From positions 3,739,501 to 3,803,500 of the forward strand of contig NZ_CP157005.1 of NCBI RefSeq assembly GCF_039904985.1: 64,000 nt of DNA, read 5' to 3'. This document shows, one piece after another, positions 17,526-54,360 of the stretch. Position 1 is the first letter of the stretch, and the number at the start of each line of letters is the position of its first letter. The DNA comes from Methylomonas sp. AM2-LC. GTDB taxonomy: Bacteria > Pseudomonadota > Gammaproteobacteria > Methylococcales > Methylomonadaceae. The notes beneath the pieces were generated by a model. That model saw nothing but the letters and a program-made list of their open reading frames with translations. It had not been told where the DNA came from and did no database searches. A program made the position numbers and the translations under genes.

Positions 17526-18536
17526 ATGATCGTAAAACTTAAGCCACTGAGTGCGGCCATTTTTCTGGTCGGATTTACACCCCTTGCAGCCCAGGCTGTG
17601 GATGCGTTACTAACTGCAGATACCTATATTGCTTCTGGCTTTCCAACCAGTAACTACGGAAACTCTGTTAACCTTAAAGTTAATTCCAGCGCAGATGGAC
17701 TTTTGCAATTCGATTTGACAGGCATACCTACCGGTACCACCGCAACTAACATCAGCAAAGCAACTTTATATGTGTGGGTAAACACGGTCACCACACCGGG
17801 CGCTTTGGAAATAAGTCCAGTGACCAGTGCCTGGACTGAACAAACCGTTACTTTTAATTCACCGCCTTCAGTAGGCGCACCTTTGGCGAATGCGGTGCCT
17901 GTTACCCAAACTGCAAACTATATTCTGGTAGACGTTACTGCACAACTAAAAGCTTGGCTTACCAATCCAGCCAGCAATTTTGGTTTACAAGTACAACCAG
18001 ACCCAACTGCACCTAGCACCTCCATCTTGATCGACAGCAAGGAAAACTCTCTTACCAGTCACCCTGCCTTTATTGACATCAGCTTGATAGGCAATGGCCC
18101 TACGGGTGCAAAAGGTGCAACGGGAGGAGTAGGTCCAACAGGGCCGACCGGAGCAACTGGCCCTACCGGACCCACTGGTCCCACTGGTCCCACTGGCCCT
18201 GCCGGCACAAATGGAACTAATGGTACTAATGGCAGCAACGGCGCTCCAGGCGTTACTGGTCCGGCTGGTGCACCCGCCGTTTTTAATGTAGCTGGTGCAC
18301 TACAACCCGCTACTACATTCATCGTTGCTGACACGGTTAACTTCGTAGGTACCAACGTACAGACAGTAACCTTTTCACATAGATTTAGTCCAGGTGTTAC
18401 TCCCGTTTGCACAGTTACACCTGTTTTTCCTGGACACTTAACAGCTGATATTAATAGTGTTAGCAATACTCAGTTGACCATAGAATTAAGTCTGGTAGAT
18501 AACGCTGCGGTTAATTTTATTTGCATAGGAAATTAA
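17526..18536 (+). CDS. DNRLRE-domain protein with a collagen-like Gly-X-Y tail
   Basis: 336 residues. A signal peptide (about 1-24) precedes a DNRLRE-type domain ([54 protein letters not shown]), about 26-188. Twenty uninterrupted Gly-X-Y triplets follow (191-250), rich in GPT then GTN, and then a C-terminal beta-domain with two cysteines. Bacterial collagen-like stretches usually form trimeric stalks of surface proteins. GGAG sits just upstream of the ATG. The tail-collar gene follows 120 bases later, suggesting a shared surface structure. Confidence 0.85.
18096..18275 (+). repeat. Collagen-like Gly-X-Y repeat array (20 triplets)
   Basis: 180 bases encode 20 consecutive Gly-X-Y triplets, GPT units first, then GTN and GSN. 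The 9-base periodicity makes the DNA prone to slippage. Long antisense frames here are side effects of the periodic codons. Confidence 0.9.
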
Positions 18537-18656: not shown

Positions 18657-19178
18657 ATGGCAGACCCATTTCTAGGCGAAATCAGAATCTTTTCGGGTAA
18701 CTTTGCCCCCGTTGGATGGTTCCTGTGCGATGGTACAATTTTGCCCATCTCCCAATACACCGCTTTGTTTGCTATTATTGGCACAACATACGGCGGTAAC
18801 GGAGTAAGTAACTTTGCCTTACCGGATTTACGCGGACGCTTTCCAATTGGACAAGGATCTGGCCCCGGTCTCTCACCTGTCATATGGGGAGAATCGAGCG
18901 GTCAGGAATCGGTAACATTGCTTGCTAACCAAATGCCTAGCCATAACCATCAATTAACAGCTAGCAGTAGTGCTGGCACCACGGATAATCCCCTCAATGC
19001 CATTCTGGCAAATGGTTCAGGATCTTCCATTTATGCAACAGGCAGCGCACCTAACGAAACTCTGGCACCCACAACTATTACCAACGCTGGAGGTAATACA
19101 CCGATACCTATTCGCAACCCTCATCTAGGAATTACTTTCATTATTGCGTATACCGGTATTTTTCCTTCACGTGCTTAA
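18657..19178 (+). CDS. Phage-tail-collar-domain protein (microcystin-dependent-protein family)
   Basis: 173 residues without a signal peptide. It starts with the family hallmark FLGEIRIFSGNFAPVGWFLCDG and contains ALPDLRGRFPIGQGSGPG and a later histidine-rich PSHNHQL. Related proteins are small, free-standing tail-collar domains of uncertain function, often next to other surface proteins and not part of a prophage. No other phage gene is nearby. A loose ribosome-binding site (GAGG, about 18643) precedes the ATG. Confidence 0.85.
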   Translation: MADPFLGEIRIFSGNFAPVGWFLCDGTILPISQYTALFAIIGTTYGGNGVSNFALPDLRGRFPIGQGSGPGLSPVIWGESSGQESVTLLANQMPSHNHQLTASSSAGTTDNPLNAILANGSGSSIYATGSAPNETLAPTTITNAGGNTPIPIRNPHLGITFIIAYTGIFPSRA

Positions 19179-21847: not shown

Positions 21848-24800
21848 ATGAAAAACAACCAGCCAATAACTCAAAACGAAGTACATTTTTCCGCAGATGA
21901 TATTATCGTCTCAATCACCGACACTCAGGGTGTTATAACCAGTGTCAGCCCTGCTTTCTGCCAAATTAGTGGTTATACTGAAGCAGAAATGCTCGGTCAA
22001 AATCACAATATGGTGCGTCATCCTGATATGCCACCGGAAGCTTTCGAATGGTTATGGCGCACGGTAAAAACGGGAAAGACCTGGAATGCACGGGTTAAAA
22101 ACCGGGCAAAAAACGGCGACTTTTATTGGGTGGACGCAACCGTATTACCCCTTTTCGAAAACAATCAGATTATCGGATATAGATCATTACGGGTAAAACC
22201 AAGTCGGGCTCAGGTAGATGAAGCAAATAAACTCTACAACGACATCAATGCAAAACGGATTAAAAATCCATTTATACCTGGAAAATTTGCTCTGTTCATT
22301 AGCCAATTAAAGCTACGACAAAAGTTTATGATTTTGGTAGTGCTGGCAGTCATGATGTGTGCAATACCTACCTGTATATTAACAAAACGTATTAATGATG
22401 AACTGGATTTCTCTGCCAAAGAAACTCAAGGTATTACTTATATCCGCGAAACTATCAAGCTACTGCAACTGGTTCAACAACATCGTAACCTTGCAGTTTT
22501 AGTTTTAGCCGGCGACAGCAAAAGTGCCATCAATCTCGAAGCCAAACAGACTGAAGTTAATTTACAACTCAAAGCGCTGGACACAATAGACAGCAATATG
22601 CCAGAAATGGGTATGACTAACGCCCTAAAACCTATTCGCAGTGACTGGGAAAATATTACCACCTCATTAGAAAACCAATCAGCAACCAACAATTTGGTCA
22701 AACATGCCGCCTTGACGGATAAAATTTTCGCTTTCAATCGGACTATTGGCGATGTTTCAAATTTAGCACTCGATCCAGTACTGGATAGCTATTACTTGAT
22801 TATCATCGCAAATTATCAACTGAGTGATATTGCAGAACGACTAAGTTTGTTAGCCAGCATTGGCGGACGCGCTTTGGAACAAAAAACCGTGTCACCCCAA
22901 GATATACAGGATTTACAAAAAATACTGGGCGATTTACCGGGGGCACAAGCCCTGTTGGAAGAAAATATCCGTAAAGTACAGGTATCCGATTCCCTTCGTA
23001 ATGAAGTACAGAAAATTAGCCAGGATATTGCTTCAATCAGCCAATTAACCACAGATCAAATCATAAAACCAGCCAAACTGGAATTCTCCGGGCATGATTT
23101 TGTAGAAACCACACTCGATAAAACAGACTATATTTACAAAGTATCGGCAGATATTAACGATTTAGTAAATGACTTAGTTAATAGCCGGATTGCTAATACC
23201 CAAAACTCCAGATTAATCAACCTACTCGGAATACTTAGCTTATTGGCAGTTAATTTACTGTTAACCAGTTGGATAATACGTGGAATTTTACGACCCGTAA
23301 CGGCAATGAGCGAAGCGCTTAATAAACTGGGTCGTGGTGAAATGCCAAGCAACGATGGACAAGATTACGGCCAGGAAATGAATCAACTTAAAGAAGGCCT
23401 GAATTTGGCAATATCCAGTGTCCGCTCTTTGATTTCTGATACCCGAATGTTAGTGCTGGATGCAACTAACGGTAAACTGTCTTCTAGGGCGGATGCTGAC
23501 AAACATCAAGGCGATTACCGTAAAATTGTACAAGGTATCAATAATACCCTTGATGCAGTAATTGGTCCGCTCAATGTCGCAGCAACTTATGTAGAAAATA
23601 TTTCCAAAGGCGCTATTCCAGCTAAAATTACCGATAATTACAATGGCGATTTCAACGTTATTAAAACCAATATCAATACCTGTATTGATGCAGTGAACGC
23701 GCTGGTTGCAGATGCGGTGATGCTCTCGCAAGCCGCTGTGGAAGGCAAACTGTCTACCCGTGCTGACGATACTAAACACCAGGGCGACTATCGCAAGATC
23801 GTACAAGGTGTAAACAACACACTGGATGCTGTGATTGGGCCATTGAATGTCGCAGCTGATTATGTGGACAATATTTCCAAAGGATCTATTCCAACCAAAA
23901 TTACCGACACTTACAACGGCGATTTCAATACCATCAAAAACAATCTGAACAATTGTATTGATGCTATCAATAATATGGTCACCGAAGCAGCCAACCTGGA
24001 AAAAGCCGCTATTGAAGGCCATTTGGCCACCCGTGCCGATGCCAGCCAGTATCAAGGCGATTACCGTAAAATTGTACAAGGTGTCAATAACACCCTGGAT
24101 GCCGTGATTGGTCCGCTCAATGTCGCTGCCGATTATGTCGATAATATTGCCAAAGGGGCTATTCCAGCTAAAATCACCGATAACTACAATGGTGATTTCA
24201 ACGTCATTAAAACCAATCTCAATACCTGTATTGATGCGGTAAATGCACTGGTTGCGGATGCGGTAATGCTCTCGCAAGCCGCTGTGGAAGGCAAGCTGTC
24301 TACCCGTGCTAACGATACTAAACACCAGGGCGACTATCGCAAGATCGTACAAGGTGTGAACAACACGCTGGATGCGGTGATTGGGCCATTGAACGTGGCG
24401 GCTGATTATGTGGATAATATCTCTAAAGGTTTGATTCCAGCCATAATTACCGACACTTACAACGGCGATTTCAATACCATCAAAAACAATTTGAACAATT
24501 GTATTGATGCTATCAGTAATATGGTCACCGAAGCAGCCAACCTGGAAAAAGCCGCTATTGAAGGCCATTTGGCCACCCGTGCCGATGCCAGCCAGTATCA
24601 AGGCGATTACCGTAAAATTGTACAGGGTGTAAACAATACGCTAGATGCTGTGATTGGTCCGCTCAATGTGGCTGCCGAATATGTCGATAATATCGCCAAA
24701 GGCGCTATTCCAGCTAAAATTACCGATAATTACAATGGCGATTTCAACGTCATTAAAACCAATCTCAATACCTGTATTGATGCGGTAAATGCACTGATTG

Positions 24801-26740
24801 CCGATGCGGTAATGCTGTCGCAGGCAGCGGTGGAAGGCAAACTGTCTACCCGTGCCGATGACACTCAACACCAGGGTGACTATCGCAAGATTGTGCAAGG
24901 TGTAAACAGTACACTGGATGCTGTGATTGGGCCATTGAATGTCGCGGCTGATTATGTAGACAATATTTCCAAAGGATCTATTCCAGCCAAAATTACCGAC
25001 ACTTACAACGGCGACTTCAATACCATCAAAAACAACTTGAACAATTGTATTGATGCTATCAGCAATATGGTCACCGAAGCAGCCAGCCTGGAAAAAGCCG
25101 CTGTTGAAGGCCATTTGGCCACCCGTGCCGATGCCAGCCAGTATCAAGGCGATTACCGTAAAATTGTACAAGGTGTCAATAATACCCTGGATGCCGTAAT
25201 TGGCCCTCTCAATGTGGCTGCCAATTATGTCGATAATATTGCAAAAGGGGCCATTCCGACCAAGATCACTGACTCTTACAACGGCGATTTCAACGTCATT
25301 AAAACCAATCTCAATACCTGTATTGATGCGGTAAATGCACTGGTTGCCGATACGGTGATGCTGTCACAGGCAGCGGTAGAAGGCAAACTATCTACCCGTG
25401 CTGATGACACTCAACACCAGGGCGACTATCGCAAGATTGTTCAAGGTGTGAACAACACACTGGATGCCGTGATTAGGCCATTGAATGTCGCGGCTGATTA
25501 TGTGGACAATATTTCCAAAGGATCAATACCAGCCCAAATTATCGACACTTACAACGGAGATTTCAATACCATCAAAAACAATCTCAATACTTGTATAGGC
25601 GCTATCAATAACTTGGTGGCTGATGCCAATATGCTATCAATCGCCGCTGTCGAAGGCCAGCTGCAAACACGTGCTGATGCCAGCCAACACCAAGGTGATT
25701 TTCGAAAAATTGTGCAAGGTTTTAATGATACGTTGGACGGTGTTATTTTACCAGTTAACGAAGCCGTTGAAGTGTTAACGCTGGTTGAACAAGGCGATCT
25801 AACACGCATAATACGTGGAAATTACAAGGGGCAACTGGGCGACTTTAAAGACACTGTTAACAATACCATCGCCAAATTGTCGCAAACTATTTCAGAAGTC
25901 ATCAGTTCCGCTGATCAATTAGGCAATGCTTCTGAACAGATCAGTGCCACCTCACAATCTTTATCGCAAGCCTCTAGCGAACAAGCGGCTAGCGTTGAAC
26001 AAACCTCGGCCAGTATCGAAGAAATGGCTGCCAGTATTAACCAAAATGCTGAAAATGCCAAGGTAACCGATGGCATGGCCAGCAAAGCATCACACGAAGC
26101 CACCGAGGGAGGGGTTGCCGTAAAACAAACCGTAGATGCCATGAAAGAAATTGCCAATAAAATTGGCATTATTGACGATATCGCTTATCAAACCAATATG
26201 CTGGCCTTAAATGCCGCCATAGAGGCTGCTCGGGCTGGCGATCACGGCAAAGGTTTTGCGGTAGTGGCTTCAGAAGTACGTAAACTGGCAGAACGCAGTC
26301 AAGTAGCGGCGGCAGAAATCGGTACATTGGCAGAAACCAGCGTCAAAACGGCAGAAAGTGCGGGCAGATTACTGGACGAAATCGTACCTAGCATAGCCAA
26401 AACATCAGACTTGGTACAGGAAATTGCAGCAGCCTCGCATGAGCAATCATCAGGCGTTAGCCAAATTAACACGGCCATGAATCAAATGAGTCAAATTACC
26501 CAGCAAAATGCTTCCGCCAGTGAACAATTGGCCGCTACCGCCGAAGAGATGACCAGTCAGACCGAACAACTGCAAAGTCTGATGAGCTTCTTTAAAATTA
26601 CTGGCAGCAATGTAATAGTGAGTGACAAACTCGATAGCTCTTCTACAAAAACGGTAAAAGTCAGACCCACCCTGCAACACAATCAGGAACGAAGCGATGA
26701 CGAGTTTGAATTTGACTTAAGCAAATTCCAAAAATTTTAA
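21848..26740 (+). CDS. Giant methyl-accepting chemotaxis protein: Aer-like PAS, periplasmic domain, poly-HAMP, signalling domain
   Basis: 1630 residues, several times the usual receptor length. Order: PAS domain (about 15-125) with R57, H58, D60 and W79 placed as in the FAD-binding Aer receptor; TM1 (about 160-178); a periplasmic sensor of about 275 residues; TM2 (about 457-480); HAMP; eight tandem 91-residue HAMP-type repeats (564-1291); a further HAMP-like unit; and the MCP signalling domain with the canonical tip ([20 protein letters not shown]). It ends [10 protein letters not shown], matching the x-aromatic-x-x-aromatic CheR tether. Redox or oxygen sensing is an inference from the PAS domain. 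It is the first gene of the chemosensory cluster, separated from the rest by 624 bases. Confidence 0.93.
23537..25720 (+). repeat. Eight tandem 273-bp units (91 residues each) encoding HAMP-type repeats
   Basis: Each unit begins [16 protein letters not shown] or a close variant and is exactly 91 residues (13 heptads). Units alternate between two sequence types: odd units have [18 protein letters not shown], even units [14 protein letters not shown]. The true period is therefore 546 bases, four times over. Units differ mostly at synonymous positions. The array starts and ends exactly at unit boundaries. Confidence 0.95.
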
Positions 26741-27364: not shown

Positions 27365-28441
27365 ATGGACATTTTTGAATATATAGCAATACTGTTCGGT
27401 ATGTTGGCTGCTGGGTTTGTAGGTGCCTGGATAGGCAAAAAACCTTTACTGGCAAAACTGGCTGCACAACAAGCGATTAAAACGCCAACAATATCGATTA
27501 ATGACATAGAGGACTATATTGCTGATATAGACAATCTTTGCCATAAGCTACTGCCTATTTGGGCTAATCATATTGAATTATCCAGACTACAGATGGAGCA
27601 ATCTATCAGCGAGCTGTCTGCAGAATTTGCCAGCATTACGCAAAACTTGAATTCCGCACTGGATAACTCTCGTGCCGACTTACTTCAGGGTGATCATGGT
27701 ATTTTTGATACCAGTAATAAGCGCTTAGGTAAAATCGTGTCTAGCCTGGATGTTGCATTTAACGAAAACATGACCATGCTGGAACAAATTAGATCACTTG
27801 CCGGCTTTGTACGAGAACTGAAAGAAATGGCAAAAGAAGTCGCGAACACGGCGGCTCAAACCAATCTGATTGCCCTTAATGCCGCCATTGAAGCAGCGCG
27901 TGCTGGCGAGGCTGGACGTGGTTTTGCAGTGGTTGCCGATGAAGTCAGAAAACTTTCCACCCTGTCAGGAACTACAGGTAAATTAATTGGCGAAAAAGTA
28001 GAGCTGGTGAGTAGCGCTATCAACCATACCTTACAAGTCGCTGAAAAAACGGCTCAGACTCAATCTGACATTATTACCAACGCCAATTCAGACATAGAAG
28101 CGGTGTTAAATGATTTACATACTGTGTTTGATAACATGAAAACCTCGTCGCAAAAACTAAGCGAAGTCACACATAATATCAAAGGTGATATCGATCAATC
28201 ACTGGTGCATTTTCAATTTCAGGATCGTATTGGACAAATTCTGATACATGTAAAAGACAGCATCAATAAGGTTCCAGAGTACATGACTCTGAGTCATGCT
28301 AACGGTGTTACCTCTCTGAAACCCATCGGCACCAATGAATTATTAGCTTCGCTTAAAGGTTCTTACACTATGGTAGAAGAGCATCAGACGAACGAATCCA
28401 TTCCATCTCAACAAACACCGACTGAAATTACATTTTTTTAG
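27365..28441 (+). CDS. Short membrane-anchored methyl-accepting chemotaxis protein without periplasmic domain
   Basis: 358 residues. One N-terminal membrane helix (about 5-24) is followed directly by coiled coil and an MCP signalling domain with the tip motif [36 protein letters not shown] (in two parts: [19 protein letters not shown], then [12 protein letters not shown]). There is no ligand-binding domain or HAMP. The C-terminal [18 protein letters not shown] occurs in similar receptors encoded with CheY and CheA. It probably senses through the membrane or a partner. Nine bases separate it from cheY. Confidence 0.88.
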
Positions 28442-28449
28442 GAAAAACC

Positions 28450-28818
28450 ATGGCAAAAACTATATTAATTGTAGACGATTCGGCCTCTGTAAGGCAGGTA
28501 GTCAAAATTGCTCTGACGGGTGCAGGTTACGATGTCATTGAAGGCGTCGATGGTAAAGATGCACTGAGTAAACTGACTGGACAAAAAGTTCATCTGATTA
28601 TTTCTGACGTCAATATGCCCAACATGGACGGTATTACTTTTGTAAAAGAGGTCAAACAATTGGCCGCCTACAAATTTACGCCCATTATTATGTTAACGAC
28701 CGAATCGCAAGAAGGCAAAAAACAGGAAGGCCAAGCGGCTGGCGCTAAAGCCTGGGTTGTTAAACCCTTTCAGCCCGCGCAAATGCTGGCAGCTGTGTCC
28801 AAGCTTATTCTGCCGTAA
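28450..28818 (+). CDS. cheY: CheY-type single-domain response regulator
   Basis: 122 residues, a lone receiver domain. IVDDSASVRQVV provides the acidic pair, LIISDVNMPNMDG the phospho-acceptor aspartate (about D54), and the conserved MLTTES threonine and VVKPF lysine are present. It should receive phosphate from the CheA encoded two genes on and act on a motor or other output that lies outside this window. GGAAAAACC precedes the ATG. Confidence 0.92.
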   Translation: MAKTILIVDDSASVRQVVKIALTGAGYDVIEGVDGKDALSKLTGQKVHLIISDVNMPNMDGITFVKEVKQLAAYKFTPIIMLTTESQEGKKQEGQAAGAKAWVVKPFQPAQMLAAVSKLILP

Positions 28819-28862
28819 CTATTGCTAAAACTGAACGTTTTTTGTTCACCAGGAGTCCCCCC

Positions 28863-29150
28863 ATGCAAAGCCTTGCCATCAATGATGAATTAACCATATT
28901 CACGGCTACCGAGCAAAAAAAACATTTACTGGCTTTTTTACAAACAGACGATGAGCTTGAGGTAAACCTTGCCAATGTGTCAGAAATTGACACTGCTGGC
29001 TTACAACTATTGATTCTACTAAAGCGCGAAGCTGCACTGGCCAGTAAAAAAATAAGTTTTGTAATGCACAGCAAAGCAGTACTTGAAATATTTGAACTGG
29101 CCAACCTCACCACTTCATTTGGTGATCAGGTAGTACTTGCCAATGACTAG
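28863..29150 (+). CDS. STAS-domain protein (anti-sigma-factor-antagonist type) in the chemosensory operon
   Basis: 95 residues from an ATG with CAGGAG upstream; an in-frame ATG at 28842 lacks one. The STAS fold is clear: LEVNLANVSEIDTAGLQLLILLKREA, in which the position of the phosphorylatable serine of SpoIIAA-like proteins is taken by threonine (DTAGLQLL). Such proteins occur in several bacterial chemosensory clusters next to CheA. It may be phosphorylated or may act as an adaptor; both are inferences. It lies 11 bases before cheA. Confidence 0.85.
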   Translation: MQSLAINDELTIFTATEQKKHLLAFLQTDDELEVNLANVSEIDTAGLQLLILLKREAALASKKISFVMHSKAVLEIFELANLTTSFGDQVVLAND

Positions 29151-29161
29151 GAGTTGCCGAT

Positions 29162-31414
29162 ATGAGTTTTGATGAGGAAATGCGCGAAGCACTTGTGACT
29201 TTCACGATTGAAAGCATGGAGTTGTTACAAAATATGGAAGAAGGTTTGCTGAATGTTGAAGCAGATGAAGATCCTTCTGAACAAATCAATGCTATCTTTC
29301 GAGCCGCACACACGATTAAAGGCTCTTCGGGGTTGTTTGGACTTAATCACATTGTTGCCTTTACGCATGTGGTGGAAAGTGTTCTCGATTTATTACGCGA
29401 TGGTAAAATCGCTATCTCATCCGAACTCATTGCTGCCCTGCTGCCTTGTTGTGATCATATCGCCTTGCTCATTGGTGGCGTTGTTGATGGCCAAGTGGCT
29501 GAAGATCCCGCCAATACAGCGGCGGGACAATTGTTGCTGGACGAATTACAACCTTTTCTTAGCGGCGAACAACATCATTCTGTTGTTACAAGCAACGACC
29601 GTCAAGAAAAAGTGGAAGCCATGGGTGGTGGTGGCGCAGTTGACAGTGGCAACTGGCATCTATCCTTACGTTTTGGTCCTGATACCTTACGAGAAGGCAT
29701 GGATCCCCTGTCATTTATTCGCTATCTCAGCACCTTAGGCGATATTGTTCATCTCACCACTGTTTGCAATGGCATTCCCGCTGAAGAACACATGGATCCT
29801 GAAACCTGTTATCTCGGCTTTGAAATCGAGTTAAAAAGTGGAGCGGTTAAGGCTGATATTGAAAACGTATTCGAATTTGTCAGGGACAGCAGCACTATTC
29901 GCATTCTACCCATGGAAAGCGGCATTGATGATTTCATCGCCCTGATTAGAGATCTTCCAGAAGATGATCGCTATTTAGGTGAATTACTGGTAAACAGTGG
30001 TGCGGTAACCCGACATGAACTGGAAGAAGCCTTAACTCGCCAAAAATCCGAACAACAAAGCAACGATGCTAGTGAACACCAGATTACTCCGCGTATCGGT
30101 GAAATTCTGGTTGATCAACAGGCCGTACAGCAGCCCATCGTCAATGCTGCATTAGAAAAGCAAAAACAAAACAAGGACAAGAAAAACTCGGAAAACCAAA
30201 GTATCCGCGTAGATGCAGAGCGTCTCGATAAACTTATCGATTTGGTAGGAGAGCTGGTTATTTCTGGAGCCGGTGTCAATTTACGCTCATTAATCTCCAG
30301 CGACGATACCCTTAAAGAACAAACCAGCGATTTAATGCGGCTGATTGAAGAAGTACGTGATAGCGCCCTGCAATTACGCATGGTACCCATAGGTACTACT
30401 TTCAGTCGTTTTCAACGTGTAGTGCGTGATGTCAGTAAAGAACTGGGCAAAGAGATAGAACTGGTTATCAGTGGTGGCGACACCGAAGTTGACAAATCAA
30501 TTGTCGAAAAAATCAGCGATCCGCTCATGCATTTAGTGCGCAACTCAATGGATCATGGCATCGAAGCCGCTGGAGTGCGTATTGAACGTGGCAAACCGGC
30601 ACGAGGTGTTTTACGGCTAAATGCTTATCATGCCTCGGGCAGCATCGTTATTGAAGTGAGTGATGATGGCGGCGGTCTTAATCGGCAACGGATTTTGGAA
30701 AAGGCTATCGAACGAGGTCTGATCGATGCCAATGCTCAATTAAGTGATCCAGATATTTATGCACTGATTTTCGAACCCGGCTTCTCCACCGCGCAACAAC
30801 TTTCCAATATATCTGGACGCGGTGTTGGCATGGATGTGGTCAAGCGCAATGTAACTGCTTTACGCGGCAGTATTGAAGTGGATAGCCAGTTGGGTGTCGG
30901 CGCTACCATGCGCATATATTTACCTTTAACATTAGCCATTATTGACGGCTTTATGATTGGTGTGGGTCAATCCACCTTTGTCATTCCATTAGACAGAATT
31001 TCAGAATGTCTGGCCTTACCCAGCGATACCAATAACCACGATTACATTGATTTACGTGGCGAAGTATTACCTCTGATACGCTTACGCTCATTATTCGAAA
31101 TTAGTGGCGAAACTCCTAGCCGTGAAAACGTGGTAGTGGTTGAATACGCTGGCAATAAAACCGGATTTATTGTTGATGAGTTATTAGGCGAATTTCAGAC
31201 CGTCATTAAACCCTTAAGTAAACTGTTTATCCATATTAAAGGGGTAGCAGGTTCAACCATACTCGGTACGGGCAAAGTCGCATTGATACTCGATGTGACT
31301 ACATTAATAGAATTAGCCACCCGACAAAATCAGGCTTTACTGAAAAATGTAAATCCAAAACTACCTAACAATTCAAACTTTATCTCTGGAGCATTATCCT
31401 ATGAGTCTACTTAA
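29162..31414 (+). CDS. cheA: CheA sensor kinase with two MshEN-like motifs
   Basis: 750 residues. HPt domain with phospho-histidine H50 ([12 protein letters not shown]); a middle domain (about 164-260); two copies of an LGExLVxxxxVxxxxLxxALxxQ-type motif (271-294 and 311-334); dimerisation helix (about 345-410); HATPase with N-box [11 protein letters not shown] (458-468) and DDGGGL; and a C-terminal CheW-like domain (about 625-735). The two extra motifs match the pattern of the c-di-GMP-binding MshEN domain apart from Y271 for the usual arginine and a 16-residue linker. It phosphorylates CheY and CheB. Its last 14 bases overlap the next receptor gene. Confidence 0.93.
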
Positions 31415-34400
31415 CTTATTTAACATTAAAGATGCGGCTTCTGCAGCAAACAAATTTCAATCATTTCTGGATAACTCCAGCAACGGTATTATCTTTTTCG
31501 ATGAGCATCTGAATGCCAGTCATGCCAGCAAAACCGCTATTAAGCTCTACACCGAGCATAAACAAACTTTCCAAGCCACAGCACCGGCATTTAATATAGC
31601 CAATATTGCTGGCGTTAATCTCAGTGCCTTTAATTTAATTCCACAGCAGGCCATTGACGACCTACCCCGAAAAAAAAGCTGGGCGCGAATGTTGAAAATG
31701 GAGGCTGAACAGGTTCACTTTACATTAACACCGTTTGTCGATGACAACAAAGGCCTTAGCGGGGCAATGCTAGAGTTCTGGTGGGCGACCGACTATCAAA
31801 AAATGGAAATCGAATCCTCTCGATCAGCTACCATCGTACAAACGACTACTTTACCAATCTTGACTTGTGATGTAAATCGATTCATCACCTCGGTTAATCC
31901 CGCAGCATTAGCGTTATTAAAGGGCTACACCAAGGAATTAAAACAACTATTTCCTGATTTCGATGCTGAAAAATTGGTTGGCAGAAATATTGACGAGTTC
32001 CATAAAAACCCTGAAATGCAAAAACGCCTTTTTACAGATACAAGTACCGTTATGCCCCATAAAGCGCGCATACAAGTACTTGAACTCTTTTTCGAACTAA
32101 CGCTGTTTCCATTGAAAGATGCTAAAGAAAAAATCACTGGCTATGCTATTGAATGGTTAGATGTGACTAATGAAAACAAAACCATTGCACAAATAGACAG
32201 AATCGCGCAAAACATCATAGAAGGAAAATTAAACGAGCGCATGGACACCGCTCAATTTAGCGGTAATTTTCTCAAATTAACCCAAGACATTAACAAAATG
32301 CTGGATGCGGTGATCGAGCCTCTGAATGTGACAGCTGATTATGTGGATAATATCTCTAAAGGTTTAATTCCAGCCAAAATTACCGACACTTACAACGGCG
32401 ATTTCAATACCATCAAAAATAATCTGAACAATTGTATTGATGCTATCAGCAATATGGTTACCGAAGCAACCAATCTGGAAAAAGCTGCCATTGAAGGACG
32501 CCTGTCCACCCGTGCCGATGTCAGCCAGTATCAAGGCGATTACCGTAAAATTGTACAAGGCGTCAATAATACCCTGGATGCCGTAATTGGCCCGCTCAAT
32601 GTGGCTGCCGATTATGTCGATAATATTGCCAAAGGCGTCATTCCGCCTACCATTACAGATAACTATAATGGCGATTTTGATATTATCAAAAATAATCTTA
32701 ACAATGTAGTAAAAATGATGAACGACCTGCTTGCGCAAACCGACATCATCATCAAGGCCGCTGCAGATGGAGATCTAGATAAACGCGCCGACGCTACGTT
32801 GTTTATGGGTGGCTGGAACAAGCTGGTATCCGGCGTTAACGACACCATTACCAATATTGTCAATCCGCTTAATGTTACCGCTGACTATGTTGATCAAATT
32901 GCTAAAGGCATTGTGCCACCAACAATTACGACCGAATACAAAGGTCAGTACAACATTATCAAAGGCAACCTAAATGCCGCCGTAAAAATGATGAACGATT
33001 TACTGGCGCAAACTGACATCATTATTAAAGCAGCAGCCGATGGCGAACTGGATAAACGCGCAGACGCCTCGCTGTTTGTGGGCGGCTGGAACCAATTGGT
33101 CTCCGGCGTTAACGACACTATTACCAATATTGTCAATCCACTGAATGTTACCGCTGACTATGTCGATCAAATTGCCAAAGGCATCGTACCTCCCACTATC
33201 ACGACCGAATACAAAGGCCAGTACAACATTATCAAAGGCAATCTGAATGCCGCCGTAAAAATGATGAACGATTTGCTAGCACAAACCGACATCATCATCA
33301 AAGCAGCTGCCGATGGAGAACTGGATAAACGTGCCGATGCCACTCTGTTTGTGGGCGGTTGGAACAAACTAGTATCCGGCGTGAACGACACTATTACCAA
33401 TATCGTCAATCCGCTAAATGTTACCGCTGACTATGTCGATCAAATTGCCAAAGGCATTGTGCCACCGACAATTACGACAGAATACAAAGGTCAGTACAAC
33501 ATTATCAAAGGCAACCTGAATGCCGCCGTAAAAATGATGAACGATTTACTGGCGCAAACTGACATCATTATTAAAGCAGCAGCCGACGGCGAACTGGATA
33601 AACGCGCTGACGCCTCGCTGTTTGTGGGTGGCTGGAACCAATTGGTATCCGGTGTTAACGACACCATTACCAATATTGTCAATCCGCTGAATGTTACCGC
33701 TGACTATGTCGATCAAATTTCCAAAGGTATCGTACCTCCGACCATCACAACCGAATACAAAGGTCAGTACAATATTATTAAAGGCAACTTGAATGCCGCT
33801 GTAAAAATGATGAACGATTTACTGGCACAAACCGATATCATCATCAAAGCGGCAGCCGAGGGCGAACTGGATAAACGTGCAGACGCCTCGCTGTTTGTAG
33901 GCGGCTGGAACCAATTGGTATCCGGCGTGAACGACACTATTACCAATATCGTCAACCCGCTGAATGTTACCGGTGACTATGTCGATCAAATTGCTAAAGG
34001 TATCGTACCTCCAACCATCACGACCGAATACAAAGGTCAATACAACATTATCAAAGGCAACCTGAATGCAGCCGTGAAAATGATGAACGATTTGTTGGCA
34101 CAAACCGATATTATCATCAAGGCTGCTGCCGAAGGACAACTCGATACGCGTGCTGATGCATCACTGTTTGTAGGCGGCTGGAACCAATTGGTAACCGGCG
34201 TTAATCAAACGCTCGACGGCGTTATTCTGCCCGTCAATGAAGCGGTTGAAGTGTTAACCCTGGTTGAACAAGGCGATTTAACCTGTGCTGTCAGCGGCGA
34301 TTACAAAGGTCAACTGGGCGATTTTAAAGACACGGTCAACAATACCATCGCCAAACTATCGCAAACTATATCAGAAGTCATCAGCTCCGCGGATCAATTA

Positions 34401-35216
34401 GGCAATGCTTCTGAACAGATCAGCGCCACCTCACAATCTTTATCGCAAGCCTCTAGCGAACAAGCGGCCAGCGTTGAACAAACCTCGGCCAGTATCGAAG
34501 AAATGGCTGCCAGTATTAACCAAAATGCTGAAAATGCTAAAGTAACGGACGGCATGGCCAGCAAAGCTTCGAACGAAGCCACCGATGGAGGGGTTGCAGT
34601 AAAACAAACCGTAGACGCCATGAAAGAGATTGCCAATAAAATCGGCATTATTGACGACATCGCCTATCAAACCAATATGTTGGCCTTAAATGCCGCCATA
34701 GAGGCTGCTCGGGCGGGCGATCATGGAAAAGGTTTTGCGGTAGTGGCAGCGGAAGTACGCAAATTGGCAGAACGCAGCCAGGTTGCAGCGGCAGAAATCG
34801 GTAAGCTAGCCGAAACCAGCGTCAAAACAGCAGAAAGTGCTGGCAGGTTACTGGATGAAATCGTGCCTAGCATCGCCAAAACGTCCGACTTGGTACAGGA
34901 AATTGCTGCAGCCTCGCATGAGCAATCATCGGGTGTTAGCCAAATTAACACGGCCATGAATCAAATGAGTCAAATTACCCAGCAAAATGCTTCCGCTAGT
35001 GAAGAATTGGCCGCTACTGCTGAAGAAATGACCAGTCAGACCGAACAACTGCAAAACTTGATGAGCTTCTTTAAAATTACGGGTGGTAAAGCTATATCAT
35101 TTGCACCTGCTTCTATCAATCGCTCCAAAAAAATCGAAAGAACAAAAACAAATTCACCCGTCAACCGCAGTAATGGCGCGGGTGAGTTTGATTTAAGCAA
35201 ATTCGAACAGTTTTAG
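31401..35216 (+). CDS. Giant soluble methyl-accepting chemotaxis protein with two PAS-like domains and poly-HAMP
   Basis: 1271 residues, no membrane segment seen, so cytoplasmic. Two PAS-like regions (about 20-130 and 145-270) precede a HAMP-like start, seven tandem 91-residue HAMP-type repeats (297-933), a further HAMP unit and an MCP signalling domain nearly identical to that of the 1630-residue receptor. It ends [10 protein letters not shown], again fitting a CheR tether. The first repeats resemble those of the other giant receptor; the last five form their own type ([20 protein letters not shown]). The start overlaps the end of cheA by 14 bases. Confidence 0.93.
32289..34199 (+). repeat. 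Seven tandem 273-bp units (91 residues each) in the soluble giant receptor
   Basis: Exact 91-residue period, in phase with the repeats of the other giant receptor. Unit 1 is close to the even-type units there, unit 2 is transitional, and units 3-7 are almost identical to one another in protein ([20 protein letters not shown]) but carry scattered synonymous differences. Confidence 0.95.
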
Positions 35217-35229
35217 GGAGCAAAACATC

Positions 35230-35772
35230 ATGGCAGCAATTAGTAATAATTCAGTTAAACAATTACCCGCAGGCCAAGAAACCGCAACAACAGGTCAATA
35301 CCTCACTTTCGTATTAGGAGGTGAGGTATATGCGTTGGGAATTTTAAATATTAAAGAAATTATCGATTATGGACACTTAACCGAAGTACCGATGATGCCC
35401 AGCTTTGTACGTGGTGTCATCAATCTTCGCGGCAGTGTGGTACCGGTTATTGATCTATCTGCGCGTTTTAGCAAAGGCAGTACGCAAATTCACAAACGCA
35501 CAGGCATTGTGATTGTCGAGACCTCCAGCGACAGCGAAGATGACACACCGCAAGACTTGGGAATTATTGTCGATGCCGTAAACGAAGTGGTAGACATCAG
35601 TCATCAAGATATTGAACCACCACCCAGTTTTGGTGTCGGCATTCGTCCCGAGTTTATCAGTGGCATGGCCAAACAAAATGATCGATTTATTATTTTGCTG
35701 GATGTCAACCGGGTACTATCAATAGATGAAATGGCGACCTTAAGTCAAGTAGTAGAGCATGTTCAAGAGTAA
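35230..35772 (+). CDS. cheW: CheW coupling protein
   Basis: 180 residues with the CheW fold: YLTFVLGGEVYALGILNIKEI, VRGVINLRGSVVPVIDLS and the C-terminal GMAKQNDRFIILLDVNRVL. It links receptors to CheA in the array. GGGAG lies upstream of the ATG (14 bases after the soluble receptor gene), and its end overlaps cheR by 14 bases, as cheA overlaps the soluble receptor gene, so translation is probably coupled along the operon. Confidence 0.94.
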   Translation: MAAISNNSVKQLPAGQETATTGQYLTFVLGGEVYALGILNIKEIIDYGHLTEVPMMPSFVRGVINLRGSVVPVIDLSARFSKGSTQIHKRTGIVIVETSSDSEDDTPQDLGIIVDAVNEVVDISHQDIEPPPSFGVGIRPEFISGMAKQNDRFIILLDVNRVLSIDEMATLSQVVEHVQE

Positions 35773-36622
35773 AGACACCGTTAAGCCAGAATGGCAAACG
35801 CTTGCAAATACATCTCCCGTATTACAAAATCATGAGTTTATATGGATAAAGGACTATCTTTATAAACACGCGGGTATTGTCTTAAACGACAACAAACAAG
35901 CTATGGTCTCTGGCCGCTTAGACAAACGGTTACGGCATCTCGGTTTTTCCAGTTATACAGAATATTTTCGGTTATTTGGAAAACCGGGATTCGAACAGGA
36001 AACCTTGATGGCAATCGATTTGCTGACCACCAACGAAACCTATTTTTTTAGAGAGCCCAAGCATTTTGATTTCCTCAAAACACAGTTTTTCCCCTCACAA
36101 AACAGTGGCCGTCCCCTAAGAATCTGGAGTGCCGCCAGCTCAAGTGGCGAAGAAGCGTATACATTAGCCATGCTGGCAGCGGAATATTCCAAAACCAGCC
36201 AATGGGAAATCATAGGCACCGATATTTCCACCCGTATACTTGAAAAAGCCCGACGAGCTTTATATCCAATGAGTGCCACTGAAAAAATTCCACAACCATT
36301 TTTGAAAAAGTACTGCTTAAAAGGCAATGACGAATACGAAGACTTTTTCTTGATTAACAACAATTTACGCAGCAAGGTAAAATTTTTACATGCTAATTTG
36401 ATCGAAAAACTGCCTGAATTAGGTAGTTTTGATGTGATATTTCTTCGTAACGTGATGATTTACTTCGATATAGAAACCAAACAAAAACTGTTAAAGCGTA
36501 TTGAACCCTTTTTGCGTCCTGGTGGTTATTTTATCATCAGTCATTCCGAATCTCTGAATGGATTTGAGAATGGTTTGAAAATGGTTTTACCCTCCATTTA
36601 TCGGAAAATGGGTGATGAGTAA
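35759..36622 (+). CDS. cheR: CheR protein-glutamate methyltransferase
   Basis: 287 residues. An N-terminal helical domain (IVLNDNKQAMVSGRLDKRLR) precedes an AdoMet-binding Rossmann domain with LRIWSAASSSGEEAYTLAML, IIGTDISTRILEKARR and FDVIFLRNVMIYFD. It methylates glutamates on the receptors. Both giant receptors end in aromatic pentapeptides that could tether it. It overlaps cheW by 14 bases and cheD by eight. Confidence 0.94.
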   Translation: MFKSKDTVKPEWQTLANTSPVLQNHEFIWIKDYLYKHAGIVLNDNKQAMVSGRLDKRLRHLGFSSYTEYFRLFGKPGFEQETLMAIDLLTTNETYFFREPKHFDFLKTQFFPSQNSGRPLRIWSAASSSGEEAYTLAMLAAEYSKTSQWEIIGTDISTRILEKARRALYPMSATEKIPQPFLKKYCLKGNDEYEDFFLINNNLRSKVKFLHANLIEKLPELGSFDVIFLRNVMIYFDIETKQKLLKRIEPFLRPGGYFIISHSESLNGFENGLKMVLPSIYRKMGDE

Positions 36623-37112
36623 TGGTTTACCACAAACACCGGATTTTTGTATTGATATATTCTTACATCCAGGTGAGTTTTATTTTGGCGATAAAGAAAC
36701 ACGTATCCGGACATTGTTGGGATCTTGCGTAACCATCACGCTTTGGCATCCACGTTTACTGATTGGTGGTATGTGTCATTACCTACTGCCAATGAAACAC
36801 AATAATAAGCAAAAGGCTCTTGATGGCCGTTATGCGGATGATGCCATAAAAATGTTTTTACAAGAAATGCATAATACAGGTACTTGGCCTGCAGATTACG
36901 AAGTCAAAATGTTTGGTGGTGGTAATCAGTTTCCCAATCAGGTTAAAAACGGGCTCAATAATATCCCCGACAACAATATCAGAGTTGGATACGCTTTATT
37001 AAACCAGCACGGCTTTAAATTAAAAACTCAACACGTGGGTGGTACTGGCCACCGCAATATAGTTTTCGATGTCTGGAGTGGACAAGTATCAGTGCAACAT
37101 ATAAAAAAATAA
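36615..37112 (+). CDS. cheD: CheD chemoreceptor glutamine deamidase
   Basis: 165 residues. The catalytic cysteine is in LLGSCVTITLWH and the histidine in GGMCHYLLP, followed by EVKMFGGGNQF, all typical of CheD. It deamidates receptor glutamines and often interacts with a phosphatase or CheY. I used the ATG at 36615 rather than the GTG just before it. It overlaps the end of cheR by eight bases. Confidence 0.93.
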   Translation: MSNGLPQTPDFCIDIFLHPGEFYFGDKETRIRTLLGSCVTITLWHPRLLIGGMCHYLLPMKHNNKQKALDGRYADDAIKMFLQEMHNTGTWPADYEVKMFGGGNQFPNQVKNGLNNIPDNNIRVGYALLNQHGFKLKTQHVGGTGHRNIVFDVWSGQVSVQHIKK

Positions 37113-37127
37113 CGGGAGCATTCATAG

Positions 37128-38234
37128 ATGCCAGAAAAAAAAATCAGAGTACTTATCGTTGACGATTCTGCCGTGGTGCGTCAGGTGTTAACACAGTTAT
37201 TGAGTAAAAGTGACGCCATTGAAGTCATCGGTTCAGTTTCTGACCCAATTTTTGCAATGGCGAGAATGAATCAGGATTGGCCGGATGTTATCGTACTGGA
37301 TGTGGAAATGCCGCGTATGGATGGCATTACTTTTTTAAAAAAAATAATGTCGGTGCGCCCCACACCGGTAGTGATTTGTTCTACCTTAACTGAAAAAGGT
37401 GCTGAAACCACTTTACAGGCACTCTCTGCTGGCGCGGTTGGCATTGTTACCAAACCGAAAGCCGGGTTGAAAAGCTTTTTAGAAGACGATTCTGCCGATA
37501 TTACTCATGCTATTAAAGCCGCAGCGCAGACAGATATGCGCCGTATGAAAGCCATGACAATGTCGCTTTCGACAGCCGGACATGCTACACCGGCAAATAC
37601 TGCTCTCAAGTCAACGCTGCAACCGAGAGATCAGCAACACACCAGTAGTCTGGCGATGAGCTCGACAACAGACAGATTGATTGCCATTGGTACCTCCACG
37701 GGTGGAACTCAGGCCTTAGAGTTGGTGTTAACCAAGTTATCCAGAATTTGTGCGGGTATTGTGATTGTTCAACACATGCCTGAAAGATTTACTGCCGCGT
37801 TTGCCGCGCGCTTGAACACCCTTTGTGAAATTGAAGTGAAAGAAGCTGAATCGGGTGACCGCGTTATTCCCGGTCGTGCGCTGATAGCCCCAGGCGGTAA
37901 GCATATGTCAATCAAACGCAGTGGCGCTCAATATCATGTCGAGGTGCAAGATGGTCCCCTAGTCAATCGTCATAAGCCCTCGGTGGATGTACTGTTTCGC
38001 TCCGTTGCGAAATGGGCAGGAAAAAATGCACTGGGTATCATAATGACGGGTATGGGTGATGACGGAGCTCGCGGTCTTAAAGAAATGTTAAATGAAGGCG
38101 CACAAACACTGGGTCAGGATGAAAAAAGTTGTGTGGTTTATGGCATGCCAAAAGAGGCTGTCAAGTTAGGTGCCGTGCAACAGGAAGTACCCTTGCAAGC
38201 GATTTCCGGTCACATTGAACGATATAGCAAATAA
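37128..38234 (+). CDS. cheB: CheB protein-glutamate methylesterase/deamidase
   Basis: 368 residues. The receiver domain has [11 protein letters not shown] and [13 protein letters not shown] (phospho-aspartate near 58). The C-terminal esterase carries the catalytic serine in [12 protein letters not shown], histidine in [15 protein letters not shown] and aspartate in [12 protein letters not shown]. CheA-driven phosphorylation activates it to remove receptor methyl groups, closing the adaptation loop with CheR. It starts 15 bases after cheD with GGGAGC upstream and is the last gene of the cluster. Confidence 0.95.
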
Positions 38235-42647: not shown

Positions 42648-44342
42648 TCAATTGGAATAAACTTGTGGTTCAGGACAAACCCGGTTGCGCCCCTCGGATT
42701 TGGCTTTATAAAGTGCTTGATCCGCTTCAACGAATAATTTAGATAAACTTACACATGACTGATTCAGCGTAGCAACGCCTATGGAAACGGTAAATTGGAT
42801 ATCAATACCTTCTTCTACCGTCACCACCGCTTGCGAAACCAGATCTCTGAACCGCTCCGCTACTTCGATAGCTTTATTTTCGGAGGTTTCTGGCAATATG
42901 ATGGCAAACTCTTCACCACCCAGGCGACCAATCACATCGATATCGCGCACTGTAGCACGGGCAAGACTACCAAACATTTGCAAAACCAAATCACCCGATT
43001 GATGACCATAACGATCATTAATCAGCTTAAAATTATCCAGATCAAGCATCAATAAGGATAATTCCCCGCCATAGCGGATAATGCGGGTAAACTCTGCTTC
43101 AGCCTGTTCCATAAAGTAACGGCGATTACTTAAGCCGGTTAGATAATCAATATGCGCCAAACGTTGATATTGCGATTCGCTTTTACGTAACGAATCCTCT
43201 ACGGCTTTGCGTTCAATAATTTCATTGGTCAATTGATTATTAACTTCCAATAATTTTGTCTGGGCATCCAGCATATCTCGATGCATACGAAAAAAATAAA
43301 AACCTACAATCACTGCAAATACTAATAACACCACGCCTACGAGTAGCATGGGTAATAACCAGCGCGGCCACTTTTCCTCTGCATGCGGTGCATAAATAAA
43401 CCCTTGCAGGGTATTGGTATTACTGACCAAACCAGCACGTACAAAAGTGTCAGCCATGCGCTGCCAACGATCTGTATTCATATGCCCAATTTCAATTAAA
43501 TCCGGATAAATAAGCGCACGCATGGTCGTTGCTTCATAGTTAAGATGCTCAATGCTTTTCGATACAGCGTATTTACTTTTCAGCAGTTCGATGATTTCTT
43601 GCGGATGATCCATCGCATATCGCCAACCTTTTAAAGTGGCTCGTTTAATGGCTGCAACCCGTTGCGGGTGGTCATGTAACTCTTTTTCCGTTGTAAACAG
43701 AATATCACTATAAAAATCAACACCGTACTGACTTGGATCGATAATATTATAAGCAATATTTTGTTGCTTCAGCAGATAAGGCTCATTGGTGATATAGGAG
43801 TTAAATGCATCAACCTTACCGGTGATTAAATCATTAATATTATAACTACTGGGAACAATATTCAGTTGATTAAGAGGTATACCTTCACGTAAAAAAACGG
43901 TCAGAAAATCAGCATCTTCCGTGACATTCATCAACATGATTTTTTTATTGCGCAAGCCATCTGCACCGGTAATACCGGATTCCTTACGTACTAACAAAAT
44001 TGAAGGCGAATGCTGAAAAATAACAGCCAGTGCCACTAAAGGTTTACCCAATAAGCGCTGATAAAGTACTTCACTATTGCCTTCTGCGTAGAGAGCGTGT
44101 CCGGATAATACTTCGGTTACAGGTTGATGCTCTGGATCTCCGGCATGCAGATTAACCGTAAAGCCTTCGTCCTGATAGAAACCTTTCTCCAGAGCAGCAT
44201 AATAACCCGCAAACTGAAACTGGTGATGCCAGCGCAGCTGGATATCGACACTATCGCCTGAAGGGGTTTCCGTGGCAAAGGCCAAGTTAACCCAACTAAG
44301 GCAAATTAAGATAAGTAAATAGAGATAAATATGCAGCATCAT
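42648..44342 (-). CDS. Diguanylate cyclase with periplasmic NMT1/THI5-like binding domain
   Basis: 564 residues. Signal peptide/anchor; an NMT1-type solute-binding domain (about 28-300: DIQLRWHHQFQFAGYYAALEKG); one membrane helix (about 330-350); a coiled linker; and a GGDEF domain with the active-site form GGEEF (IGRLGGEEFAIILPE), which should be catalytic. NMT1 domains bind thiamine-precursor-like ligands in transporters; here the domain probably controls c-di-GMP synthesis. It is the only gene on this strand in the neighbourhood and converges on the anti-sigma gene. Confidence 0.9.
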   Translation of the reverse strand: MMLHIYLYLLILICLSWVNLAFATETPSGDSVDIQLRWHHQFQFAGYYAALEKGFYQDEGFTVNLHAGDPEHQPVTEVLSGHALYAEGNSEVLYQRLLGKPLVALAVIFQHSPSILLVRKESGITGADGLRNKKIMLMNVTEDADFLTVFLREGIPLNQLNIVPSSYNINDLITGKVDAFNSYITNEPYLLKQQNIAYNIIDPSQYGVDFYSDILFTTEKELHDHPQRVAAIKRATLKGWRYAMDHPQEIIELLKSKYAVSKSIEHLNYEATTMRALIYPDLIEIGHMNTDRWQRMADTFVRAGLVSNTNTLQGFIYAPHAEEKWPRWLLPMLLVGVVLLVFAVIVGFYFFRMHRDMLDAQTKLLEVNNQLTNEIIERKAVEDSLRKSESQYQRLAHIDYLTGLSNRRYFMEQAEAEFTRIIRYGGELSLLMLDLDNFKLINDRYGHQSGDLVLQMFGSLARATVRDIDVIGRLGGEEFAIILPETSENKAIEVAERFRDLVSQAVVTVEEGIDIQFTVSIGVATLNQSCVSLSKLFVEADQALYKAKSEGRNRVCPEPQVYSN

Positions 44343-53900: not shown

Positions 53901-54071
53901 TTGCTGTCCTTGTAAAGCTGTTTCCAGTAACTGCGTAAGCGGCTGCCATTCGCTTCGCGTGATGTCCAGTGGTCGGAAAGACAAAACACCAAAACGTAAA
54001 TGCGGTGAATTTTGCGCCTGTACCGAACCCAATTTAAAAAATAGTAGGCTTAAAAATAAAATAATTCGCAT
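50913..54071 (-). CDS. PhnD-like binding domain fused to PAS, GGDEF and EAL domains
   Basis: 1052 residues from the ATG that opens a signal peptide (MRIILFLSLLFFKLG, ending SVQA); a start at 54170 would add 33 odd residues. Order: PhnD-like domain (about 20-290), membrane helix (about 310-330), two PAS domains (about 360-480 and 485-605), GGDEF with intact RIGGDEFVVLLEN, and EAL with intact EALLRW and DDFGTGYSSL. Both cyclase and phosphodiesterase activities are possible. The external ligand would set c-di-GMP. It converges on the second PhnD-like gene. Confidence 0.92.
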   Translation of the reverse strand: MRIILFLSLLFFKLGSVQAQNSPHLRFGVLSFRPLDITRSEWQPLTQLLETALQGQQIDLLPMHLDELEAAVKMDTLDFMLINPECFVLYRNNEGASAIATLIPFYAGRPAAEYAGVVFTRADRSDIDTIYDITGKTVAAVGEKSLGGFMMQRWEFAKVGLQNIHYQYTGMPQDRVVEQVLAGQADVGLVRSGILETLKSEGHLSLNALKIINQHPADNLTFLHSTEHYPEWPFVISHHVSAETARKVAIALLSIKHTDPAAMAAKIAGFKTPSDYTPVETLMLRLKYHSSELKQFELSDVLARYRVPLVISFIAVFTLFALGGSLLRANRRLRDSSANNYRLLENLNASKKVYQGLFEHMSSGVAVLEAIEKGKDFIVRDFNRAAELLENVGREKVLGRRLSIVFPTAKTYGLFDIIKRVWLTGDSENAVICYTSEQEVWRSNYVYRLLTGELVVIYDDISQFKRTESALIDSHDNLQRLLDSMAEGAYGIDTEGKCTFVNKSALRLLGYSKAEELLGKNIEQLFHHLSTDSQQQPGAESKLRQAWLNNQYINMSDEVVLRKDGSLLPVEYWSYPIEKAGRVIGAIATFIDITDRKLAEEKILNLAYYDPLTKLPNRRMLLERFQTALSVSERSRQYGAVLFLDMDKFKLLNDTHGHNYGDLMLIEVAQRIKYCVREVDTVARIGGDEFVVLLENMGETVEEASPKASLIAEKIRTALLTPYTLNNHVHHSSPSIGVCFYFGNSIAVDELIKFADIAMYQAKNSGRNTVRFYDPDLQLAVEARARLESGLRQALHNDELQLHYQIQFDGQQLPIGAEALLRWIHPLRGVVSPAEFIPIAEESMLIIDIGNWVLHNACLQLANWTKHPQYCHLTLAINVSAHQFRMPEFVELVEAAMHQYEIDPALLKLELTESVILNDIADVVAKMNALKALGVSLSLDDFGTGYSSLSYLKQLPIDQIKIDQSFVRDIATDANDAIMVKAIIDMAKNFNLNVIAEGVETETQLEFLIQNGCMAYQGYLFAKPMPIHLMESHLQTFVNQRSKPAHLMTNAK

Positions 54072-54360
54072 TTTAGCAGTGCTTATAGAGATAGGCTGTG
54101 ACCAAGGAAAAAACACTAGCAGAGCTGGACATATAGCCAATAAAAACGACTGCGCCGCACTTAGACTCACTCAGAGTAATTATTTATACAGGGTTACTGA
54201 ACTTAGCAATGTGCCAAAGTCAGGCTTTCGATGTTCTCCATTAACTTTTAGTTAACGAATTTAAGCATAGCAGATTTTGCCCGTTGCATGGCGAATGCGC
54301 GCAGAGTTTGAAAAAGGTTTAATCCGCGCATACCCAGCAACCGAAATGCATAGGTTGATT

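Follow-up and report, generated by a model that had tools for sequence, protein, structure and literature searches.

The 64,000-nucleotide stretch of DNA analysed here (hereafter, the window; positions 3,739,501 to 3,803,500 of contig NZ_CP157005.1 of Methylomonas sp. AM2-LC) encodes a poly-HAMP chemoreceptor, denoted p, in which a long stalk of HAMP domains connects the membrane part with the signalling tip. The sequence-only reading of the window had recognised a 1630-residue chemoreceptor at this place, and indeed the open reading frame (ORF) is present and contains a methyl-accepting chemotaxis protein (MCP) signalling domain (PF00015, 128.9 bits versus a cut-off of 34.6). From the N-terminus, p is composed of a PAS domain, a transmembrane helix (TM), a putative periplasmic sensor of the NIT fold, a second TM, about 19 HAMPs, a short (34H-like) hairpin and a tail resembling a CheR tether (Table 1). 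The count of 19 HAMPs is derived from k = 8.97, k being the number of 91-residue HAMP pairs that follow the single membrane-proximal HAMP, and the AlphaFold model covers residues 732-964 only.

Most of the stalk is encoded by an array which had been described as eight exact 273-bp units, starting and ending at unit boundaries. The spacing is exact: Tandem Repeats Finder gives a period of 273 bp (7.7 copies, 23502-25596) with 0% indels. The sequences, however, are not identical, pairwise DNA identity of the eight in-register units being 0.67-0.96, and the boundaries are not strict, as HAMPs extend past both sides of the 23537-25720 array. Two types of unit alternate. Identity within a type (the four A units, and the B units other than the last) is 0.84-0.96 versus 0.67-0.73 between A and B, and the last unit is a diverged B (B'). 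The larger repeat is thus 182 residues (546 bp), and protein self-identity reaches 0.68 at a lag of 91 residues and 0.81 at 182, against 0.06 at lags 90 and 92. The first and last A units differ by 33 silent and 9 amino-acid codon changes. Silent changes also outnumber amino-acid changes between other same-type copies; the two are about equal in one B pair and wherever the last unit is compared. Such predominance of silent changes is not the pattern of a fresh artefact or of a decaying repeat. The p array is real, conserved and partly homogenised. Antisense frames lie over it on the minus strand (23450-24601, 383 residues; 24641-25171, 176 residues) and are probably shadows of the repeat rather than genes.

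The proposed HAMP nature of the 91-residue units is borne out by both profile search and modelling. PF18947 (HAMP_2) matches p in nine stretches with 910.6 bits (gathering cut-off 24.3). In the AlphaFold model of a 233-residue monomer (p residues 732-964, pLDDT 91.8) every 91 residues hold two helix-connector-helix repeats, and the top fold matches are the Aer2 poly-HAMP crystal structures 3lnr, 4i3m and 4i44, which cover three HAMPs of the Aer2 chain. The predicted helices (7-37, 52-82, 97-128, 142-173 and 189-219 of the monomer model) run continuously from one HAMP into the next. The model agrees with the expectation of two HAMP bundles per unit, but not with that of a continuous coiled coil, since each unit has two non-helical connectors of 13-15 residues. 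The two halves of a unit share a protein identity of about 0.12, i.e. two distinct HAMP types are paired. A glycine beside the helix starts (positions 6, 51, 97, 142 and 188) is invariant in all 36 aligned rows, while the DExG motif is found in a single row, which is not that of the window. This fits the hallmark of divergent HAMPs, a single conserved glycine at the connector-AS2 junction and a lacking DExG motif, as described in PMC3570549. The sequence-only reading had further pointed out that 91 residues make 13 heptads, so that added units would keep the coiled-coil phase. As the cause of the period this can be dismissed: the connectors interrupt each unit, and the extra single HAMPs of about 40 residues in Geobacterales are no heptad multiple. 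Nor is the argument needed, because any exact-period duplication keeps its own register. A long signal relay through the stalk, likewise suggested, is plausible, as some signal path must cross it.

The PAS domain of p matches that of Escherichia coli Aer (112 bits to 8dik). Full-length Aer (31cj) is matched at both the PAS and the signalling domain, and 10 residues of the Aer PAS are kept in p in the alignment to 31cj. Judging from this similarity, the domain is of Aer type and presumably binds FAD. E. coli Aer, unlike p, is not known to have a periplasmic domain or a long HAMP chain. The NIT domain of NasR (4akk) belongs to a cytoplasmic transcription antiterminator, whereas the NIT-fold domain of p is predicted to be periplasmic and is part of an MCP. 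Each arm of the p hairpin is seven residues, or one heptad, shorter than in Tsr and so differs from the 36H hairpin reported for the Aer2-like receptors of F7 systems. The signalling hairpin of Tsr is 36H, so that of p would be 34H.

Poly-HAMP receptors are a known and widespread kind, of which p is a very long new member. Like Aer2/McpB, the soluble PAS/poly-HAMP receptors that belong to the F7 systems of Pseudomonas and Vibrio, p has stacked divergent HAMPs, a similar Che neighbourhood and a tail of the form x-[HFYW]-x2-[HFYW]. It differs from them in having about 19 HAMPs rather than 2-5, in spanning the membrane and in carrying a putative periplasmic NIT-fold sensor and an Aer-type PAS. 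The Vibrio Aer2 equivalog model NF041847 scores 606.7 bits for p, below its cut-off of 1200. The best solved sequence relatives of the unit, PDB 9trk and 9trj (profile E-values 9.6e-22 and 4.1e-10), are histidine kinase fragments fused to Gcn4p; they are labelled as histidine kinase and not as chemoreceptor, and their nature as HAMP chains would follow from the match. Our sample of relatives was selected for similarity to p and comprises the best 80 out of 513 confirmed matches. In it, 96 reading frames, which come from 76 of the 83 sources, matched a unit profile; they have 2 to 17 units, predominantly at the 91-residue spacing. Receptors with such HAMP_2 pairs range from Proteobacteria to Methanomicrobiales and Methanolobus (also Geobacterales, Zoogloea, Azospira, Riflebacteria metagenome-assembled genomes and others), and an inserted domain or an additional single HAMP is present in some of them. 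In this sample p is long but not the longest; the receptor of locus L013 has 2235 residues and 17 units. Six loci (L015, L044, L046; L029, L043, L047) show an apparent extra stalk domain of about 133 residues (spacing 224-225) or a different pre-tip module, and in L043 and L029 such receptors exceed their neighbours by about 40 residues, as though the module took the place of HAMP pairs. Several p-orthologs end not in a CheR-tether-like tail but in a domain of the chemoreceptor zinc-binding (CZB) type, called by Pfam in L140, L146, L150 and L196 and by similar sequence in L139, L142 and L143.

To compare stalks, we used the distance from the second TM to the LNAAIEAA motif of the tip. In Methylomonadaceae, 45 of 49 membrane receptors fall on the series 160+91k within 0.1 unit, so that their lengths change in steps of whole HAMP pairs and their number of HAMPs is odd, 1+2k. 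The four receptors off the series are two from L199, which are under-measured owing to a run of N in the tip, and those of L152 and L203. Among orthologs of p with related sensors and tips, k ranges from 1 to 12. The 49 receptors each have two TMs and a tip that could be read. Excluded were ORFs open at the 5' end, those without two predicted TMs and those with TMs fewer than 100 residues apart, the TM filter thereby removing soluble, truncated or other-type receptors. Duplicates were dropped (L010, L011, L021 and L194, equal to L148, L143, L139 and L009), and L207-L215 are not among the 49. TM ends were taken from hydropathy peaks and may be off by several residues; in the second receptor of L141, with one TM called, TM2 was set by hand at 202-220, and the length for L207 is about 249 once a false third TM inside a HAMP is disregarded. 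In other taxa many values lie off the series, those of Geobacterales (746, 836 and 927 residues) by about 0.43 unit, which, by eye, looks like one extra HAMP of about 40 residues before the tip. Since this extra HAMP makes the number even, an odd HAMP number is ruled out as a general parity constraint.

Receptors encoded side by side in this family are often equally long. Same-locus pairs agree within 8 residues in 15 of 23 cases (14 of 20 among those with lengths of at least 240), compared with a mean of 2.1 in shuffles, none of 10,000 of which reached 15; relatedness is uncorrected in this and the following shuffles. The clearest case is a receptor with a 4HB sensor encoded next to the p-ortholog, which equals it within 7 residues in all eight genomes (k from 2 to 12; lengths 1254/1251, 703/705, 611/614, 1067/1074, 885/888, 885/887, 434/432 and 339/345). 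All eight matches were reproduced in 11 of 200,000 shuffles; with the near-identical genomes G025 and G026 counted once, all seven were reproduced in 40 of 200,000. Copying between the two genes explains part of this matching, but three of the eight pairs are divergent or permuted. The 611/614 and 434/432 pairs (G004 and G067) have a HAMP_N3 module in both receptors at different positions, and their arrays can be aligned only with about 180 gap columns. The arrays of the 339/345 pair (G018) are only 61% identical, and the 4HB sensor in this genome is only 31% identical to that of the reference 4HB receptor. In all three genomes the totals nevertheless agree within 2-6 residues. Further equal sets with divergent arrays are 249/252 (38% identity), 254/249 (30%), the triplet 340/342/343 (42-66%) and 1068/1072 (79%). 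Conversely, neighbours in G021 share copied sequence in their tip and final three units, yet their lengths are still 885 and 614; copying alone does not equalise. The length series and the matching of neighbours are the new content of this analysis, for which, our literature search being limited, we do not claim the first report.

Downstream of p lies a chemosensory gene cluster (Table 1), which includes a soluble MCP-domain protein. The cluster's own poly-HAMP receptor, q, is a soluble protein with no called TM; it scores 644.9 bits with NF041847 (likewise below the cut-off) and ends in KFEQF, which fits the same pentapeptide pattern as KFQKF of p. The tip of q is 98% identical in protein to that of p. 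The inner units of q represent a third type and most of its array differs from that of p, while its first unit shares 0.86-0.89 DNA identity with the first three B units of p, so the p and q genes have exchanged sequence. The cluster resembles the F7 gene order given in the text of PMC7184735 (STAS, cheY, cheA, cheW, receptor, cheR, cheD, cheB) in genes and arrangement, but has a single cheW, with p upstream; the comparison is by gene content and order. In Methylomonas sp. LW13 the order is MCP-like, CheY, STAS, CheA, p-ortholog and 4HB receptor, and in the near-identical G025 the p-ortholog/4HB pair is followed by CheW and CheR; these orders indicate that p-orthologs belong to clusters of the window type. 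In the window genome, four matches to CheA-type kinases and 22 to the MCP signalling domain were counted (some two per gene). A second cluster in this genome (G000:C1:2586000-2594500, L154) has its own CheA match and short-stalk receptors, one of them with an in-frame TAA, whose tips are related (77-84% identical). Upstream of the receptor region are a protein with CBM96 and collagen-like repeats (17526-18536) and one with a phage-tail-collar domain (18657-19178). On the minus strand the window also encodes two fusions of periplasmic binding proteins with cyclic-di-GMP domains, NMT1-GGDEF (42648-44342) and phosphonate-binding-PAS-GGDEF-EAL (50913-54170).

Table 1. Features of receptor p and of the adjacent chemosensory genes (positions in the window)
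Feature	Position	Strand	Evidence
Poly-HAMP chemoreceptor p, 1630 residues, complete reading frame	21848..26740	+	ORF list, domain searches
Aer-type PAS, residues 10-134, cytoplasmic, N-terminal	21875..22249	+	PDB 8dik (Aerotaxis receptor) E 2.3e-31; PAS_3 1.9e-15
TM1, about residues 160-178	22325..22381	+	Kyte-Doolittle peak
Putative periplasmic sensor of NIT fold, about residues 186-450	22403..23197	+	
TM2, about residues 459-477	23222..23278	+	Kyte-Doolittle peak
Membrane-proximal HAMP (PF00672), residues 475-522	23270..23413	+	Pfam domain search
HAMPs 2-19, about residues 523-1345, nine more 91-residue HAMP pairs	23414..25882	+	Domain and unit profiles, k = 8.97, AlphaFold of residues 732-964
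Eight 273-bp units, types A B A B A B A B'	23537..25720	+	Tandem Repeats Finder, self-identity, unit comparison
MCP signalling domain, residues 1410-1551, each arm 7 residues shorter than Tsr	26075..26500	+	
C-terminal KFQKF, fits Aer2-type CheR-tether pattern x-[HFYW]-x2-[HFYW]	26723..26737	+	Sequence; pattern as given in the text of PMC7184735
Soluble 358-residue protein with MCP signalling domain, possibly mcpA-like gene of the cluster	27365..28441	+	
CheY-like response regulator	28450..28818	+	
STAS-domain protein	28842..29150	+	
CheA	29162..31414	+	
Receptor q, 1271 residues, no TM called, PAS and about 16 HAMPs (by eye), ends KFEQF	31401..35216	+	
CheW	35230..35772	+	
CheR	35759..36622	+	
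CheD	36612..37112	+	
CheB	37128..38234	+	

For these observations we favour, at roughly even confidence, the explanation that the stalk is a signal-competent HAMP chain whose copy number sets the height of the array, i.e. the distance from the membrane to the baseplate, with partner receptors at one height. Receptors of different length classes generally signal independently. In p, two sensors, the cytoplasmic Aer-type PAS and the periplasmic NIT-fold domain, would be coupled via about 19 end-to-end HAMPs to the hairpin that controls the kinase. Recombination would lengthen or shorten the stalk by one HAMP pair (91 residues) or two (182 residues), the copy number would fix the distance to the CheA/CheW baseplate, and the receptors of one array would be maintained at equal height. 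HAMPs may be used in place of a plain coiled coil because each can hand on a conformational signal. For p the predicted height is about 60 nm. This rough estimate starts from 17.5 nm for the signalling domain (PMC7184735), subtracts one heptad and adds 2.3 nm for each HAMP (31-residue helices); with one HAMP it gives 18.8 nm, a value that omits membrane-adjacent linkers. According to PMC7184735, the baseplate lies 24-25 nm from the membrane in F6 arrays and 38-40 nm from it in the known tall F7 arrays. The spacer role that the sequence-only reading had put forward beside the relay thus finds support within the family, where lengths are quantised and matched to the 4HB neighbour, with many exceptions, chiefly outside it. 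A stronger version, which we hold only tentatively, is that the HAMP number is a molecular ruler: co-encoded receptors of methanotrophs with unrelated sensors would be held by selection at one height, measured in complete HAMP pairs, while each lineage resets k between 1 and 12.

Several observations weigh against a stalk that sets array height. Length matching is not a general rule: outside the family, 12 same-locus pairs have receptors with two TMs set well apart, and only one of these pairs is equal (159/160), the mismatches including 561/380, 924/338, 1237/158, 610/160, 884/1016, 700/749 and 926/966. A trio in L043 (927/921/926) would agree, two of its members having been dropped by the filter for a short TM hairpin. 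Within the family, same-locus receptors are unequal in G021 (885/614/252), G012 (885/249), L019 (796/251), L192 (433/249), L199 (317/231) and the window genome's second cluster (342/160). Together with the unequal pairs outside the family, these rule out equal height of every receptor at a locus. A HAMP_2 search of the window genome gave no second membrane receptor with k = 9, q having no called TM. Finally, paired arrays share near-identical tracts in G001, G003, G008, G025, G026 and partly G004, where copying alone may equalise the lengths.

These tracts, which include the tips, are also an argument for the main rival, that array length is neutral, being altered by unequal crossing-over and equalised between tandem receptors as a by-product of gene conversion. 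Neutral expansion with gene conversion certainly contributes, as suggested by the nearly perfect repetition at 546 bp in G001 and G008 (protein identity of about 1.00 at lag 2), the near-identity of the p and q tips despite mostly different arrays, the similarity of the first q unit to the p B units, and mismatched pairs that are common in the family and the rule outside it. As the whole explanation it is possible but the less probable one: totals are equal despite permuted or divergent arrays in G004, G067, G018, G046, G128, G027 and L009, the copied tail of G021 left lengths unequal, and the dominance of silent changes within p argues that its copies are kept by selection. That the stalk is chiefly a signal processor, in which alternating a- and b-type HAMPs invert, filter or delay the signal and length tunes it, seems improbable. 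Every unit does contain two distinct HAMP types, the HAMP number on the 160+91k series is odd, and PMC3570549 describes HAMP conformers with opposite output as well as switching that alternates along tandem HAMPs; however, parity follows from the duplication unit without any need for selection, Geobacterales relatives with the extra pre-tip HAMP have an even number, and the span of k from 1 to 12 among p-orthologs with related sensors and tips would be odd if k set the signal, making a pure signal-processing role less likely. An array inflated or collapsed during assembly is very improbable. Draft-genome p-orthologs do break off within the array where a contig ends (G002, G007, G019, G020 and G043), but the contig that contains the window is 4.97 Mb long, in a three-contig genome, and every p unit has private differences, so that collapse is unlikely, and long arrays recur in independent genomes, including the single-contig G008, G021 and G026. 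Contig-end breaks inside the array occur at loci L145, L147, L149, L210 and L213, and such assemblies can under-report these receptors.

If HAMP number does act as a ruler, close relatives hold arrays of very different height, up to about 75 nm, and their signals cross 3 to 25 HAMPs. The reach and fidelity of signals along HAMP chains, and the control of array height, are usually studied with few HAMPs. Related and partly cultured methanotrophs offer one receptor with related sensors and tip on 3 to 25 HAMPs, in several cases with an equal-length neighbour, and such a series makes array height and relay length directly measurable.

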